Shown: positions 4,685 to 13,216 of the stretch, in pieces
Position numbering within the stretch: position 1 is the stretch's first letter
How the letters are laid out: the number at the start of each line of letters is the position of its first letter
DNA from: Clostridia bacterium
GTDB lineage: Bacteria > Bacillota > Clostridia > Christensenellales > Pumilibacteraceae
Length of the DNA stretch: 39,696 nt
NCBI GenBank assembly: GCA_017623455.1
Contig: JAGAPA010000039.1
Location: 1 to 39,696 of the forward strand
Direction of reading: 5' to 3'
Position numbers and translations under genes: made by a program
The notes under the pieces: generated by a model
What the model saw: the letters and a program-made list of their open reading frames with translations, nothing else
Databases searched by the model: none
Told to the model about the DNA's origin: nothing

Positions 4685-5850
4685 GTATAATTGAACAAGA
4701 CAAAACGTATATCGCTAATACGTATGCGAGATTTCCGGTACATATCGTAAGTGGAAAAGGCGCAGTAGCGGTGGACGAAAACGGCAAAGAATATATAGAT
4801 TTAGGTTCGGGAATAGGTGTTACAGCGTTTGGATATTGCGACGACGAATGGGTAAAGGCGGTAACCGAACAGCTTAATAAAGTTCAGCACACCTCTAACC
4901 TCTATTACACTACTCCCGGAGCAGATCTTGCAAAAACCTTGTGTGAAAGAACGGGAATGAAAAAAGTGTTCTTTTCAAACTCCGGCGCGGAAGCTAACGA
5001 GTGTGCTATCAAGGTTGCAAGAAAGTACGCCACAGAGAAAAAGGGTGAGGAGTATTACACAATTCTCACGCTTGTAAACAGCTTTCACGGCAGAACTCTT
5101 ACCACGCTTTCGGCAACGGGGCAGGAGCACTTTCACAAGCTGTTTAATCCTCTTACCCCCGGTTTTATTTCCACTCCGGCAAACGACGTTGAAGCGTTTG
5201 AAGAGTGTGTAAAAAACAACAAGCTTGCAGGCGTTATGATTGAAACCGTGCAAGGCGAGGGCGGAGTAAATCCGTTGGATGAAAAATTCGTAAAAGCCGT
5301 TTATGATATTTGCAAAAAGGAAGATATCATTCTTATTGTAGACGAAGTGCAGACGGGTAACGGCAGATGCGGAAAATTATACTCCTATCAAAACTACGGT
5401 ATATCCCCCGACGTCGTGTCCACGGCAAAGGGCTTGGGCGGAGGACTTCCCATTGGAGCAACGTTGATGAGCGAGAAAGTTCAGTCTGTTCTATCGTTTG
5501 GCGATCACGGCTCTACGTATGGAGCAAACCCCGTAGCGTGCGCAGGAGCAAAGAGCGTAATAGACAGACTTACCGACGAATTTTTGGCGGAAGTTAACGA
5601 AAAAAGCGCATACGTATTCGACAAACTGAGTAAAATGAAGGGTGTTGTATCGGTAAGCGGAAAGGGACTTATGATAGGAATAAAGACCGAGCGCAATGCA
5701 AAAGAAGTGGTTTTGGAGTGCTTGGAAAACGGCGTAATGTGTCTTACGGCAAAGGATAAGGTAAGGCTTTTGCCACCCCTTAACATTTCTTACGAATTGC
5801 TCGATAAGGCGCTTGCGGTTATAGAAAAAGCGTTGAAACAAGGAGAATAA
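4681..5850 (+). CDS. argD: Acetylornithine aminotransferase
   Basis: This PLP-dependent class III aminotransferase converts N-acetylglutamate semialdehyde plus glutamate to N-acetylornithine. The motif STAKGLGGGLPIGA carries the Schiff-base lysine at residue 250, and ILIVDEVQTGNGRCGKL contains the cofactor-binding aspartate. Length is 389 residues, typical of ArgD. Its start overlaps argB (ATGA), and its last codons contain the argF ribosome binding site. Class III enzymes are hard to separate by sequence alone, but the operon makes this assignment firm. Confidence 0.96.
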   Translation: MSIIEQDKTYIANTYARFPVHIVSGKGAVAVDENGKEYIDLGSGIGVTAFGYCDDEWVKAVTEQLNKVQHTSNLYYTTPGADLAKTLCERTGMKKVFFSNSGAEANECAIKVARKYATEKKGEEYYTILTLVNSFHGRTLTTLSATGQEHFHKLFNPLTPGFISTPANDVEAFEECVKNNKLAGVMIETVQGEGGVNPLDEKFVKAVYDICKKEDIILIVDEVQTGNGRCGKLYSYQNYGISPDVVSTAKGLGGGLPIGATLMSEKVQSVLSFGDHGSTYGANPVACAGAKSVIDRLTDEFLAEVNEKSAYVFDKLSKMKGVVSVSGKGLMIGIKTERNAKEVVLECLENGVMCLTAKDKVRLLPPLNISYELLDKALAVIEKALKQGE

Positions 5851-6895: not shown

Positions 6896-6912
6896 TCAAG
6901 CGTAACGCTTGA
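6896..6912. other. Short hairpin after argF
   Basis: TCAAGCG-TAA-CGCTTGA forms a 7-bp stem with a 3-nt loop 28 bp after the argF stop. No T-run follows, so it is not a standard terminator. No better terminator is visible in 6869-7087, which also contains an imperfect TTGTGAC/GTCACAA inverted pair (6989-6995 and 7032-7038) of unknown meaning. Confidence 0.35.
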
Positions 6913-7087
6913 CCTAAAACAGTATTGCAGAACAAAGAAAAGTACAAACTTTAGTGGGTTATTGAATTTTGATATGACTTATCATTTGTTGTGACATAGC
7001 CAAAAAATAATACCTATAAGGTTTATATATAGTCACAAAAGATATTGTAAAAAATTAATATAAAAATTAAAGGTTGGTAATAAAATT

Positions 7088-7603
7088 ATGACAAAATCAA
7101 ATAAGTTTATTTCGGCGATTATTATGATAGTAATCGGCGCACTCCTTATTTTCCTTAAGGGTGCAATAATCGGTTATCTTCTTACCGCTCTCGGTGTTGC
7201 GCTTATTGTTATGGGGATACTCGACGCGGTACAAAAGAAAGATATCCCGGCTTGCGTTATCAAATGCGTTATCGGTGCGCTGATAATAGTGGGCGGATGG
7301 GTGTTTGTAGCAGTTATTCTCTATATCTTGGGCGCGTTGCTCGTTGTTGTTGGTGTTCTCGGCATCATTAAGCTCGTTCAGCGCCATACCAAGGGCGAAA
7401 ACCTTCTTGCAACAGTAACCGCATATCTCGTTCCCTCGCTTTACATTCTTATCGGTATTTGCCTGTTTTTCAACCAGAGCGCAATTATGGATATAATGTT
7501 CATTATCGTGGGAGTGATCGTGCTTGTAGACGGAATTGTTCAGCTTGTAAACGCGGTAAAGGACGACAACGGAAGCTCCAAATCTAAAAAGAGCGGTAAA
7601 TAA
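7088..7603 (+). CDS. DUF308 (HdeD-like) multi-pass membrane protein
   Basis: A 171-residue, very hydrophobic protein with about six predicted membrane segments, glycine-rich helices (IGALLIFLKG, IIVGGWVFV, ILGALLVVVGVLGI, IIVGVIVLVDGIVQLVNA) and a short basic serine/lysine tail. This layout fits the DUF308/HdeD family, whose role in Firmicutes is unknown. The ribosome binding site is weak (AAAGG about 13 nt upstream). It is followed by a strong terminator and looks monocistronic. Confidence 0.7.
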   Translation: MTKSNKFISAIIMIVIGALLIFLKGAIIGYLLTALGVALIVMGILDAVQKKDIPACVIKCVIGALIIVGGWVFVAVILYILGALLVVVGVLGIIKLVQRHTKGENLLATVTAYLVPSLYILIGICLFFNQSAIMDIMFIIVGVIVLVDGIVQLVNAVKDDNGSSKSKKSGK

Positions 7604-9214: not shown

Positions 9215-9243
9215 TTGACAAATGCTTTAGATGTTGCTATACT
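9215..9243 (+). promoter_or_regulatory. Sigma-A promoter of the 34-residue miniprotein
   Basis: TTGACA (9215-9220), 17-bp spacer, TATACT (9238-9243), about 32 bp before the start codon. Confidence 0.8.
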
Positions 9244-9275: not shown

Positions 9276-9380
9276 ATGTCGTTTCTTATTATCGGTTTAG
9301 TAATAATTGCTATTAACGCTGTGTATATCGGTGGTGTTTTTCTTACCGCTAAAAATGCAGGAAAGACTAAAAAGAAATAA
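9276..9380 (+). CDS. Single-pass membrane miniprotein (34 residues), unknown function
   Basis: This small ORF reads MSFLIIGLVIIAINAVYIGG then VFLTAKNAGKTKKK: one hydrophobic helix of about 20 residues followed by a strongly basic tail, suggesting an inner-membrane peptide with a cytoplasmic C-terminus. GGAGG lies 8 nt before the ATG. It has its own near-consensus promoter and a strong terminator 27 bp after the stop, so it is a complete transcription unit. It could be a regulator of a membrane enzyme or a type I toxin-like peptide, but the basic end and lack of an antisense partner give no firm clue. Confidence 0.7.
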   Translation: MSFLIIGLVIIAINAVYIGGVFLTAKNAGKTKKK

Positions 9381-9406: not shown

Positions 9407-9440
9407 GCGCATAAGGACCTTTTTCCTTGTGCGCTTTTTT
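9407..9440 (+). terminator. Rho-independent terminator
   Basis: GCGCATAAGG (9407-9416) pairs with CCTTGTGCGC (9425-9434), followed by six T. It ends the miniprotein unit. Confidence 0.9.
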
Positions 9441-9445
9441 CGTTT

Positions 9446-9492
9446 AAAAAATTCTGCATTTCCCGTGTAATTTAAGGCAAATGCAGAATTTT
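9446..9492 (-). terminator. Leftward rho-independent terminator facing the invertible segment
   Basis: AAAATTCTGCATTT (9448-9461) and AAATGCAGAATTTT (9479-9492) are perfect 14-bp inverted copies around a 17-nt loop. Read leftward, the stem is followed by a run of T (9451-9446). It would stop any transcript coming left out of 9526-9694. Confidence 0.7.
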
Positions 9493-9525
9493 AATTATTG
9501 CATAACAATTATAAAAAGTTCGCGG

Positions 9526-9694
9526 AATATCTTATTCAATGAACAAATGTAGTTAAATTATATCATTATTGTATTTTCCTGTCAACGATTTAATGTCAAA
9601 ATGCAATTTTTTGTCATTTTTTTTTGCTATATTTTTGTGTATATACAAGAAAATATTGATAGCTTCTATATTTATGTTCGCTGAATAAGATATT
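9526..9694. promoter_or_regulatory. Candidate invertible promoter segment (phase switch), OFF orientation
   Basis: Two 20-bp inverted repeats, AATATCTTATTCAATGAACA (9526-9545) and TGTTCGCTGAATAAGATATT (9675-9694), match at 18 of 20 positions, with 13 bp perfect at the outer ends. They enclose 129 bp. Inside, on the minus strand, is a perfect consensus promoter: TTGACA (9585-9580), 17 bp, TATAAT (9562-9557). It points away from the large surface-protein gene and into the terminator at 9446-9492. Only weak promoter-like sequences point right. Flipping the segment would place TTGACA at 9635-9640 and TATAAT at 9658-9663, with a leader of about 70 nt to the start codon. This is the known layout of phase-variable promoters; no recombinase gene is in the window. 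Confidence 0.7.
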
Positions 9695-9742
9695 AGGTGA
9701 ACATGTGTATTACTTATTTCTATATTATAGGAGGTCATGAAA

Positions 9743-12700
9743 ATGGCGAAGAAAAAAAGCTTTAAAACAGCTTTGGTTATGGCGATTCTCTCCATCGTTG
9801 TATGCCTTTCGATGTTCGCAGGAACGACGTTTGCCTGGTTTACAGATTCTGTAACAAGCACAAACAATGTTATCCAGTCCGGAACACTTAAGATTGCAAT
9901 GCAATACGATAACGACGAGACATCCGATTGGACGGATTTCACCAGTACCACAAACGTGTTCAAACAAGACGCTCGTTGGGAGCCCGGACACGTAGAAGTA
10001 ATTAAGTTCAAGATTAAAAACGTAGGAACTCTTGATCTTAAGTATCAGCTCAAAGCATATATTGACGAAGAAATTGGCTCTACAAACGTTAACGGAGTTG
10101 ATTTCAAGCTTTCAGACTTTATTAAGTATGCAGTAATTGAGGGCGATCAAAACTACGATCGTGAAGCAGCAGTTAATGCGGCTAACCCCAATGCAGTAGA
10201 TCTTAGTGAAAATTATGTTAGCTCGTTAAAGCTTGGAGCAGGCAAAGAAAGAATTGTAACGATGGTAGTTTATATGCCCACTACCGTTGGTAACGATGCT
10301 AACGCAATGCCGGATGCACCCGTTCCCACTATCAATCTTGGAATTGCATTGAATGCAACTCAGGTTGAAGCGGAAAGCGACAGCTTTGGTTCTGATTACG
10401 ATGCAGGCGCACCTTGGATGGGTGATATAGATACCGCTTGGTATTTTGAAGATACTACGGCAGATACCTATACCATCGACAGTGCAGAAGAGCTTGCAGG
10501 TTTTGCAGCTATTGTAAACGGAACTGCGGAAGCTCCCGTAACCGGATTGTCCACCATAAGTGCTTCTACAAACGCAAATCAGGACACTTTTAAGGGTAAG
10601 ACAGTTAAATTGGGTGGAAATATCGACCTTAACGGTTTGGATTGGACTCCCATTGGAAGAATAGGAAAAACGTCTACTGACTTTGCGTATTCTTTCAAAG
10701 GAACTTTTGACGGACAGGGCTATATCGTAAGCAACCTTAACGTTTCCAATATAGGTTGGGCAGGCTTGTTTGGTATTGCTCACCAGGCTGAAATCAACAA
10801 CGTAAAGATCAACAACGTAAAACTTGAATCTTCCCGTATGACAGGTTCTGTTGTAGGTCAGCTTTACGGAAGTATCGATAACTGCCACGTTAACAACGTA
10901 AACATCACTGTTGTTCCTAACTGGGATCAAAAGAACTCTAAGTTTGATAACGGAGATAAGGTAGGCGGTATCGTAGGTTGGCTTGGTGATAACGGAAATA
11001 ATCGTCACCTTACCAATTCTTCTGCAACCAACGTAAATATCATAGGTTACCGTGATATCGGTGGTATTGTAGGCTATGTTGCATCTTCTACCACAATCAG
11101 CGGATGTAAAGTAGATACTGCAGATCTTGAGTCTGATCAGGTTACAAACCATTATGGAGATAAAGATGCTAACGTAGGCGCAATCTGGGGCAGAAAGGGA
11201 GGAGATATTATCGAATCCAATAACACCGCTGAAAATGTAACGGCTTCTTATTCGGAAGACGGTATTGAATACAAAAAGGATGGCGAAGGAAACGTTATAT
11301 TATATCTTGTACCTGCAGGCTACAACAATGATACTGTTGTTGTGTCCGAAGGCGTAACTGCTATTGGAAATTATGCATTTGCTTCTAATAATAATGTAAA
11401 AACTGTTGAACTTTCCTCCACTGTCAGAACTCTTGGTCGTGGATTTGACAGTTCTACTGTAGAAAAAGTTGTTCTTAACGAGGGCTTGGAAGTAATTGAT
11501 TCCCGTGCATTCAGAAGAACAAACAACTTAAAAGAAGTTGTTATTTCTTCTACCGTTAAAACTGTTGCAGATAATGCGTTCCAATCTTCTGCTATCAAAA
11601 ATATTGTATTCCCTGAAAATGTAACGTATGTTGGAGATTCTTGCTTTACTGCTGCAACCGTGGAAAGCGTAACCTTTATGGGTAAAAATGTAGAAATTGC
11701 TCATTATGCGTTCCGTGATTGTCCTAATCTTAAAACCGTTACGATTTTAGCAGATGCTATCACTCTTGGCGATGGTATGATTTTTACAAATTCTCAGAAT
11801 AACAATCAAGATCCCAATAATATTACTGTATATGTAAAGAATGAGGATGTAAAGAAAGCTATTGTTGATAATGGAACTTTTAAGGGCGCTATCGTTGTAA
11901 TGAGTGATGTTGTTGATGAACCGGCAGATATTGAAAATTCTTTCTCTGATAACGCTGATACCGTATACGTATCTGCAGGAACTTATACGTTCCCCTCGTC
12001 CAGCATAAGAGCAGGCGACGTTGTTATCTGTGCTGAGGGAACCGTATTTGAAGGAAATTCCAAGCTTAATATCGGTGGCGCAACCGTAAAGGGCGCAACC
12101 TTCTCTAACCCTACAGGAACTGCAGTTGACCAGACCATTAACGGAACCTTTGTAGATTGTACTTTCTACGGTTCTAACGGATTGCGTTGGTGCTATGCAG
12201 GCGAGACTGTAGTATTCGAAAACTGCGTATTCGACGGCGCTGTTTACGGTGTTCACTTCGACGGCGGTGCTAATAACGTATTGTTCAAGAATTGTACCAT
12301 CAGCGGATTTAACGCAATGGGCGGTGCTATCACCAACTTGAAAATGGAAGGATGTACTTTTAAGGCAAACGGCAGAAGCGGATACAACGGAATCAACTTG
12401 TGGGGCAACACCGAGCTTACCGATTGTACTTTCATTTTTGATGGTTCGGTAACAGAGTGGATTGATGCTTGTGGAGATAACACCACCATAACAGTTAACA
12501 ACTGTGTTGTAACCGACGGTACCAATGAAAAGGATATCAAAACTGTAATTGGTAACTACGGAACCGGCAACACCATAACTGTAGACGGAGATTATCTTGC
12601 TTGGTCTGCAAGTGAGTTTAACAGTGCAGTAGAAGCAGGTGCTACAACCGTTTATTTGCTTGGCGATGCAGAAGTTGATCTTAACGGCAATCAGAAAGAT

Positions 12701-13216
12701 GGCTTGAATATTATCGGTATTGGTGACAACGTTAAAGTTGCAAATACTACCAACTATGCAAGCGGTAAATCCGTAGGCGCAATCTGGAAGGCTATCCACC
12801 TTAAGAACGTAACCATAACTAACACCGTTTACACAATGGCAGACGGCGGAAACGCAACCTTTGAGAAAGTAAACTTTGCAGCAGGCGTAAGACAGGCATA
12901 CGGTAAGAACGTAGTGTTCACCGATTGTACCTTTGGTTCTAACTCCGAAGGCTATGCTCTCCACTTCCAGACAGACTCTGCAAGCGAGGGTGGAAACATC
13001 ACTATCGACGGATGTAAGTTTGAAGGCGGAAAGGTTCATCTTGGCGGAAAGAGAGCTTATACTTTCACAGGCTGTGACTTTGCTGCAGGAACCGATTTCC
13101 AGGTTTGGAGCAATATCACTCTCAGCGAATGCACTGTTGATGGCGTAGCAGTAACTGCAGAAAACGTTGCAACCTTGTTCCCCAATCTTGATTTGACAAA
13201 GGTTTCTTTTAATTAA
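9743..13216 (+). CDS. Large secreted surface protein: TasA/SipW-type signal, GLUG-like, BspA-like leucine-rich and beta-helix regions
   Basis: This 1157-residue protein is exported. Residues 1-31 form a signal with basic KKK, a hydrophobic core and FAGTTFAWFTDS, the cleavage context of TasA/camelysin proteins processed by the ER-type signal peptidase SipW. A camelysin-like beta domain follows (about 32-210). GLUG-like modules come next (SAEELAGFAAIVNG near 243; VGGIVGWLGDNG near 406; IGGIVGYVASS near 439), then BspA-like leucine-rich repeats (VSEGVTAIGNYAF near 530, to about 680). Residues 740-1140 form a threonine/asparagine-rich right-handed beta-helix with recurring 'F.NC.F.G' rungs. No LPXTG motif, SLH domain or C-terminal membrane segment is seen. 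The ATG at 9743 has AGGAGGT 7 nt upstream; the ATG at 9737 leaves 1 nt. Adhesin or biofilm roles are inferred. Confidence 0.85.
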   Translation: MAKKKSFKTALVMAILSIVVCLSMFAGTTFAWFTDSVTSTNNVIQSGTLKIAMQYDNDETSDWTDFTSTTNVFKQDARWEPGHVEVIKFKIKNVGTLDLKYQLKAYIDEEIGSTNVNGVDFKLSDFIKYAVIEGDQNYDREAAVNAANPNAVDLSENYVSSLKLGAGKERIVTMVVYMPTTVGNDANAMPDAPVPTINLGIALNATQVEAESDSFGSDYDAGAPWMGDIDTAWYFEDTTADTYTIDSAEELAGFAAIVNGTAEAPVTGLSTISASTNANQDTFKGKTVKLGGNIDLNGLDWTPIGRIGKTSTDFAYSFKGTFDGQGYIVSNLNVSNIGWAGLFGIAHQAEINNVKINNVKLESSRMTGSVVGQLYGSIDNCHVNNVNITVVPNWDQKNSKFDNGDKVGGIVGWLGDNGNNRHLTNSSATNVNIIGYRDIGGIVGYVASSTTISGCKVDTADLESDQVTNHYGDKDANVGAIWGRKGGDIIESNNTAENVTASYSEDGIEYKKDGEGNVILYLVPAGYNNDTVVVSEGVTAIGNYAFASNNNVKTVELSSTVRTLGRGFDSSTVEKVVLNEGLEVIDSRAFRRTNNLKEVVISSTVKTVADNAFQSSAIKNIVFPENVTYVGDSCFTAATVESVTFMGKNVEIAHYAFRDCPNLKTVTILADAITLGDGMIFTNSQNNNQDPNNITVYVKNEDVKKAIVDNGTFKGAIVVMSDVVDEPADIENSFSDNADTVYVSAGTYTFPSSSIRAGDVVICAEGTVFEGNSKLNIGGATVKGATFSNPTGTAVDQTINGTFVDCTFYGSNGLRWCYAGETVVFENCVFDGAVYGVHFDGGANNVLFKNCTISGFNAMGGAITNLKMEGCTFKANGRSGYNGINLWGNTELTDCTFIFDGSVTEWIDACGDNTTITVNNCVVTDGTNEKDIKTVIGNYGTGNTITVDGDYLAWSASEFNSAVEAGATTVYLLGDAEVDLNGNQKDGLNIIGIGDNVKVANTTNYASGKSVGAIWKAIHLKNVTITNTVYTMADGGNATFEKVNFAAGVRQAYGKNVVFTDCTFGSNSEGYALHFQTDSASEGGNITIDGCKFEGGKVHLGGKRAYTFTGCDFAAGTDFQVWSNITLSECTVDGVAVTAENVATLFPNLDLTKVSFN

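Follow-up and report, generated by a model that had tools for sequence, protein, structure and literature searches.

The Locus Upstream of the 1157-Residue Gene

The window, as we call the whole stretch of DNA analysed here (39,696 nt), is contig C65 of G000, a metagenome-assembled genome of 2.40 Mb in 96 contigs. It carries a gene for a protein of 1157 residues that is preceded by a probable invertible-promoter unit. The features of the locus are as follows, in window coordinates.

9215..9243, + strand: promoter of the upstream small gene, 11/12 match
9276..9380, + strand: small ORF of 34 aa ahead of the switch; sister species G001 retains it
9407..9434, + strand: rightward intrinsic terminator of the upstream small gene, which insulates the switch
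9448..9492, − strand: leftward hairpin and T tract that would halt leftward transcription in the OFF state
9518..9702: probable invertible-promoter unit upstream of the 1157-aa gene
9518..9544: recombination site on the left, an imperfect palindrome of 27 nt, GTTCGCGGAATATCTTATTCAATGAAC, with TCT at its centre
9545..9675: invertible segment between the sites, 131 nt
9557..9585, − strand: promoter TTGACA-17-TATAAT with TG before the −10, directed away from the gene (OFF)
9676..9702: recombination site on the right, an imperfect palindrome of 27 nt in inverted register, with AGA (TCT reverse-complemented) at its centre
9698..9726, + strand: weak promoter-like match, 9/12, overlapping the right site
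9729..9734, + strand: ribosome binding site AGGAGG, 8 nt before the ATG at 9743
9743..13216, + strand: target gene, 1157 aa

The initial annotation described a perfect promoter that lies within inverted repeats and points away from the gene. The promoter consensus scan found the same: on the minus strand, TTGACA (9585–9580) and TATAAT (9562–9557) match the consensus at 12 of 12 positions. Among 3000 first-order Markov nulls of the 131-nt segment, 3 contained such a promoter, and the whole window contains four 12/12 matches. The inverted-repeat scan returned repeats of 28 nt at 9518–9545 and 9675–9702, which are 82% complementary and spaced by 129 nt. The 20-bp repeats annotated earlier, with 18/20 matches and a spacing of 129 nt, correspond to the inner 20-mer of what are now defined as whole 27-nt sites. 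Compared as 27-mers, the two sites are identical at 22 of 27 positions, where the maximum in 60 Markov nulls of the intergenic region was 19. The arrangement by which an inverton is recognized, a promoter between inverted repeats upstream of a gene, is thus present.

The surroundings of the promoter also agree with the earlier description. The hairpin proposed as a leftward terminator has a folding energy of −19.2 kcal/mol (z −6.5), with six T behind it on the minus strand. The terminator consensus scan does not list it; the presumed reason is its 11-nt loop, since loops in that scan are limited to 8 nt. The gene has a perfect ribosome binding site, and the 9/12 match at 9698–9726 is the only rightward promoter-like match listed between the terminator at 9407–9434 and the gene. 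By arithmetic, inversion would bring the −10 to about 9658–9663, which is 79 nt ahead of the ATG and would make the leader about 73 nt long; the earlier estimates were about 80 bp and 70 nt.

The 34-aa ORF upstream of the switch has a promoter and a terminator of its own. It had no match in a Pfam search, and the segment 9175–9443 is 81% identical to that of G001.

Site Design and Copies in the Genome

The window repeats are parts of two sites with the consensus GTTCGCNGAATA-NNN-TATTCNGCGAAC, a 27-nt imperfect palindrome. A degenerate pattern of this site has 20 exact matches in G000. When up to one mismatch is allowed, 36 sites are found, versus 13 for the reversed control pattern. Two of the 16 one-mismatch matches fit by position, namely the left site of C16 and the site of C86, which score 26.3 and 30.8 bits (the 20 exact sites score 28.9–37.7 bits); the other 14 are chance-like by eye. 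At least one site is present at 13 loci of G000. Nine intact inverted pairs exist: the window pair, two on C3, one each on C16, C22, C26 and C51, and two on C83. The start-to-start distance in these pairs is 137–179 bp, and the two sites of a pair are identical at 21–24 of 27 positions. The initial annotation had raised the possibility of further repeat copies in the genome. At the level of the exact 13-mer AATATCTTATTCA this does not hold, as that sequence occurs only at the window locus; it is the site design that recurs, in the form of inverted pairs around promoters.

Incomplete or altered forms are found as well. C47 has a good right site and a left site of 26 nt. C15 and C86 have one site each and, by eye, a promoter directed toward the gene, as if locked ON. 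Upstream of the locked-ON promoter of C15 (L066), a unit of roughly 50 bp appears by eye twice in tandem, at about 5690–5800. The single site of C84 (L069, 7731–7757) joins two outer halves, left and right, that both resemble those of C51. It is without a promoter segment, a short gene remnant lies behind it, and it looks like the deletion scar of a switch. On C22 (L063) the pair is complete (6911–7095), the contig stops one base past the right site, and the target gene is missing; a contig end at this point is expected if the assembly broke at a flipping junction.

Matched Central Triplets

In all nine G000 pairs, the central triplet is identical in inverted register in the two partners, and seven forms occur across the pairs (TCT, AGA, GTA, CTA, ATG, GTA, ATA, CTA and CGT). 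The identity is not built in, since the sites were found one by one. When the triplets were permuted, nine of nine matches were obtained in 2 of 200,000 trials. Tyrosine recombinases exchange strands within a short overlap, which needs to be identical in both sites. The 27-nt sites have the corresponding organization, that is, paired inverted half-sites and an overlap identical in both partners, by which a tyrosine-recombinase system is recognized. In the window, strand exchange is expected within the shared centre, 9528–9534 and 9686–9692, and the unit is the entire 27-nt site.

The triplets also bear on a reading without any inversion, in which a regulator uses the palindromes as its operators and the promoter drives something that lies leftward. 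Operators are often imperfect palindromes, and each of the sites is one. Yet a symmetric operator has no need of triplets that match within pairs and vary between pairs. Moreover, orthologous segments are inverted relative to each other (see below), and all that lies leftward is the hairpin and the end of the convergent small gene. The pair-matched triplets and the inverted orthologues rule the operator reading out for practical purposes, and we grant it hardly any probability.

How far the triplets act as addresses is a separate matter. Two triplets occur at two G000 loci each, and the related genome G067 uses almost one triplet throughout. Both facts weaken the idea of a strict triplet address code.

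Promoter Orientation across Loci and Genomes

Consensus matching gives seven clear orientation calls in G000. The promoter is directed toward the gene at C51 and at both C83 loci and away from it in the window, at the two C3 loci (10.7 kb and 28.3 kb), and at C16. At C26 the two directions are nearly tied (9.5 away versus 9 toward), and the locus is called OFF because its segment aligns with the C3 28.3 kb segment in the same orientation. For C22 no call can be made, as its contig ends at the right site.

Comparing 11 segments with each other gave 55 comparisons, of which 4 align with z > 5. Two of the four align only when one segment is inverted: the window segment 9545..9675 with its paralogue on C51 (z 7.2 inverted, 1.8 direct), and the C16 segment with that of contig C25 in G001 (z 9.1 inverted, 0.7 direct). 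The other two, C3 28.3 kb with C26 and the two C83 segments, align only in the same orientation. All four alignments agree with the promoter calls, the C26 call being itself taken from its alignment.

C16 and G001:C25 represent one locus in two congeneric species, as seen from the genes that precede it in both, one of 257 aa (HAD-like by eye) and one that is acyltransferase-like. The alignment of the two segments shows that an inversion occurred at this locus between the species. A second orthologous pair, L097 and L104, has flanks identical at 741/899 and 343/400 aligned columns, and its segment can be aligned only inverted (89/119); the triplets are unlike between the species and matched within each pair. 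Thus, where the initial annotation looked to related genomes for the flipped orientation, the opposite orientation is found at related loci: both orientations occur at these two other loci of the window's design. That the window switch flips within one population, i.e., that it is phase-variable in the strict sense, is inferred. The positions of the promoter, the terminators, and the ribosome binding site suggest that orientation controls expression of the downstream gene.

A more static history can be proposed, in which the window locus was once a switch but has stopped inverting, or inverts only over evolutionary time, and is effectively locked OFF. G000 does contain locked-looking derivatives (the single sites of C15 and C86 and the C84 site that has no promoter segment), the evidence for inversion is all between genomes or paralogues, and the two window sites are only 22/27 identical; but an identity of 21–24/27 is found in all nine pairs, whose orientations are mixed, the centre of the window sites is perfectly matched, and the frame of 1157 codons is intact. 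We therefore regard a locked window switch as improbable and favour one that still inverts.

Target Genes

The 1157-aa protein has a SipW-type signal (TIGR04088, above cut-off) and a camelysin-like N-terminus (PF12389), along with BspA leucine-rich repeats and a right-handed beta helix. The target is known at eight of the nine G000 pairs, the ninth (C22) being at a contig edge. Camelysin-like proteins are the targets in the window, at C16, at C51, and at both C83 loci; long Ig/InlB-repeat proteins are the targets at C3 28.3 kb and C26. The target at C3 10.7 kb, and likewise at C47, is a TIR-domain protein.

Three paralogous proteins with a zinc ribbon and a TIR domain lie behind same-site promoters, on C3, C47 and C15 (L060, L065 and L066). 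PF13676 and PF19789 were matched in the two that were scanned; one of the promoters is directed away from the gene and two, by eye, toward it. Phase-variable TIR proteins would be unusual. An anti-phage role was considered, and PADLOC returned only two weak JetC matches, in one of the three proteins (E 0.003 and 0.006); we make no such claim.

In G001, a gene on contig C37 is the positional counterpart of the window gene. It has a plain promoter directed toward it (by eye), and the site scan found no recombination site near it. The gene is not taken as an orthologue, since a good match between its protein and the window protein is confined to the first 251 residues (53%). Elsewhere in G001, on C19 at about 69050–69294, a further inverted pair of the same design lies upstream of a camelysin-like gene, with the promoter by eye toward the gene.

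A Candidate Recombinase

The initial annotation had the recombinase act from elsewhere and named a serine or tyrosine enzyme to look for. The serine enzyme fell away: a profile search of G000, an assembly 77.6% complete, gave no match to PF00239, and a Mpi/Hin-like system was rejected on this ground. Two tyrosine recombinases (PF00589) were found, on C94 and C63.

The C94 recombinase matches PF00589 with E 1.4e-24. In an alignment of 15 recombinases, residues R148, H252, R255, H278 and Y288 are invariant; we take these to be the catalytic positions of a tyrosine recombinase. Its gene is free-standing and is closely followed by those for two SipW-like signal peptidases, matched below the NCBIfam cut-off for the Bacillus protein, and for a protein with a SipW-type signal. 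A site pair beside the C94 gene was looked for, and none is detectable. The C63 integrase adjoins a gene that by eye resembles a replication initiator, and no inverted pair was found beside it (L183). Against solved structures, the recombinase profile has its best match in the Int protein of 6emy, 6emz and 6en0 (best E 8.3e-28). This is presumably the integrase of transposon Tn1549 and not an invertase, and the likeness is one of enzyme family only.

Relatives of the C94 recombinase occur in 63 of 81 genomes (E ≤ 0.001), with four matches in G001. A second set of relatives was taken from genome contigs with named records, as the best 80 of at least 566 loci. In this set, 37 of the 70 relatives with enough sequence have an inverted pair in the 480 bp downstream of the match; the controls gave 3/78 upstream and 4/350 for shuffled sequence. 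About half of the relatives are thus without a downstream pair. A stricter test on the same best 80 of at least 566 loci, with a TA-NNN-TA centre imposed, gave 32/69 downstream versus 0/77. Triplets are matched in 31 of these 32 pairs, a figure that is biased because the test rewards identity. Contig ends lie within 230 bp downstream at 10/80 of these loci and within 250 bp upstream at 2/80, and an excess downstream is expected if assembly breaks at flipping sites. Among the alignable segment pairs from these recombinase-linked loci, 18 of 20 have the same orientation, some being near-duplicate records, and 2 of 20 are inverted, one of them with right flanks that hardly align (score 41 of a possible 400).

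The linkage is not one to just any integrase. As a distant control, 40 integrases whose identity to C94 does not exceed 34% were hand-picked from the matches in the searched genomes; a downstream pair was found in 2/39 and a strict-test pair in 0/38. Of the two with a downstream pair, one (L178, 34%) has site-like arms. Close relatives taken beside this control gave 9/18 and 8/18; 19 were taken, 18 had enough sequence, and L047 was kept although its recombinase motif is not in frame. The two collections of relatives overlap (L045 and L097 have the same sites), and the linkage test and the distant control are to that extent not fully independent.

The C94 recombinase, beside SipW-like export genes, is most likely the acting enzyme, and it is proposed to act on all these sites. 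The proposal that the recombinase acts from elsewhere thus has a candidate encoded elsewhere in the genome, whose relatives are physically linked to pairs. The switch could be real and be served by another recombinase, either the C63 integrase or an enzyme that the incomplete assembly lacks. That the assembly is 77.6% complete, that C94 has no adjacent pair, and that the sister genome has four matches to the recombinase lend this some weight. Yet C63 has a replication-initiator-like neighbour and no pair beside it, pairs are linked to relatives of C94 and not to the distant integrases of the searched genomes, and C94 adjoins the SipW-like genes that its targets would need. We judge another recombinase possible but distinctly the less probable choice, and retain C94 in what follows.

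Proposed Mechanism

Taken together, it is very probable that the window locus is an inverton in the OFF state, one of nine intact switches of one design, and that it is flipped by a tyrosine recombinase encoded elsewhere. The anatomy, the recurrence, the pair-matched triplets, the opposite orientations at orthologous or paralogous loci, and the linkage to a recombinase family are all shown at the level of sequence. The phase-variable switch put forward in the initial annotation is supported and was largely right.

The switch is proposed to work as follows. A tyrosine recombinase from elsewhere would bind the two half-sites of each 27-nt palindrome. Strands would be exchanged within the central TA-NNN-TA, and about 158 bp would be inverted. 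In the present orientation, the strong promoter would fire left into the terminator-like hairpin, leaving the surface-protein gene OFF. Inversion would turn the promoter rightward, giving a leader of about 73 nt and switching the gene ON.

A wider proposal, which we offer as speculation, is that one tyrosine recombinase sets the entire surface-fibre repertoire. The palindrome would be fixed, and the pair-matched triplet would serve as a polarity signal and a partial address, such that the switches flip separately without joining one another. The recombinase gene would be kept by the export machinery of the switched proteins.

Relation to Known Systems

The system is filed as a multi-locus invertible-promoter system in gut Clostridia, a type of system already known. 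By analogy, the mechanism would resemble that of the C. difficile RecV switches and that of the Tsr-type master invertases described in B. fragilis (PMC5903667, PMC4747536). Among the RecV-dependent switches Cdi1–Cdi7, the C. difficile report has only Cdi2 and Cdi5 sharing repeats, the others being unrelated, and some of the C. difficile switches require RecV while others do not (PMC5903667). As described there, the likeness is one of layout: a tyrosine recombinase away from several small inverted-repeat switches, surface and signalling genes as targets, and a host among the Clostridia. The difference is that all pairs are here of one 27-nt design.

In Bacteroides fragilis, the master invertases described are Mpi, a serine enzyme, Tsr0667 and Tsr19, of which Tsr19 inverts two promoters, one directly behind its own gene and one far away (PMC4747536). 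Its layout is the one suggested for the C94 relatives, and the general likeness lies in one recombinase acting on several dispersed invertible promoters of surface structures. On that account, the differences are in phylum, promoter type, and target proteins, and in Mpi belonging to the serine class, which was not found in G000 (PMC4747536).

A third system is inverton group 139, which is linked to tyrosine-type invertase group 35. As presented in the main text of its report, the group has a common repeat motif, with 32/33 members from Clostridia; a tyrosine recombinase is nearby in nearly all, and flipping was measured from reads (PMC11892184). The string Christensenell is absent from that main text. 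By description, the window system may be of the same kind. A literature search returned no paper joining invertons with Christensenellales. Among the matches listed, none joined camelysin with phase-variable, and SipW co-occurs with phase-variable in two.

Occurrence in Related Genomes

A family-wide form of the 27-nt pattern has 92 sites in 19 of 74 family genomes, 15 in the window's genome and 77 outside, while the reversed control pattern has no match in any of the 74. Such a pattern is specific enough for finding switches by sequence. What was a single suspected switch becomes a system that spans the genome and the family, in gut Clostridia known chiefly through metagenomes, and a recombinase family is named as a candidate for testing. 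The targets suggest stochastic switching of SipW-dependent fibre proteins, prepilin-like proteins, TIR-domain proteins, and DNA methyltransferases.

G067 has 35 sites of the family-wide pattern. Of 18 regions from G067 and G096, 16 have a complete pair, with triplets matched in 16/16; these 16 were picked because the listing showed a pair, and the other two are single sites near a contig end. In G067, five similar prepilin-like genes (L160, L161, L163, L165 and L169) each lie behind a same-site switch, four OFF and one ON by consensus. In the sister genomes, a looser pattern is not separated from chance (12 versus 16 for the control in G001, 1 versus 2 in G002); the G001 sites at C8, C19 and C25 match the design by eye. 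One scan of viral contigs for the strict site gave no match.

The switch beside the recombinase of Pumilibacter intestinalis (L081), with the 200 nt that follow, scores identical to those of two other family members, and the family with the system seems to include this species.

Ten chosen ORFs of the 46 listed behind recombinase-linked pairs were searched against Pfam. Three DNA methyltransferases are above the cut-off and a fourth below it; one ORF has a helicase match, and two have BspA repeats. At L097 and L104, downstream of the recombinase, a DNA-methyltransferase-like gene lies behind the recombinase-linked pair, which has opposite orientations in the two species. The L097 gene matches MmeI_Mtase below the Pfam cut-off, and the locus is a candidate for phase-variable DNA methylation.
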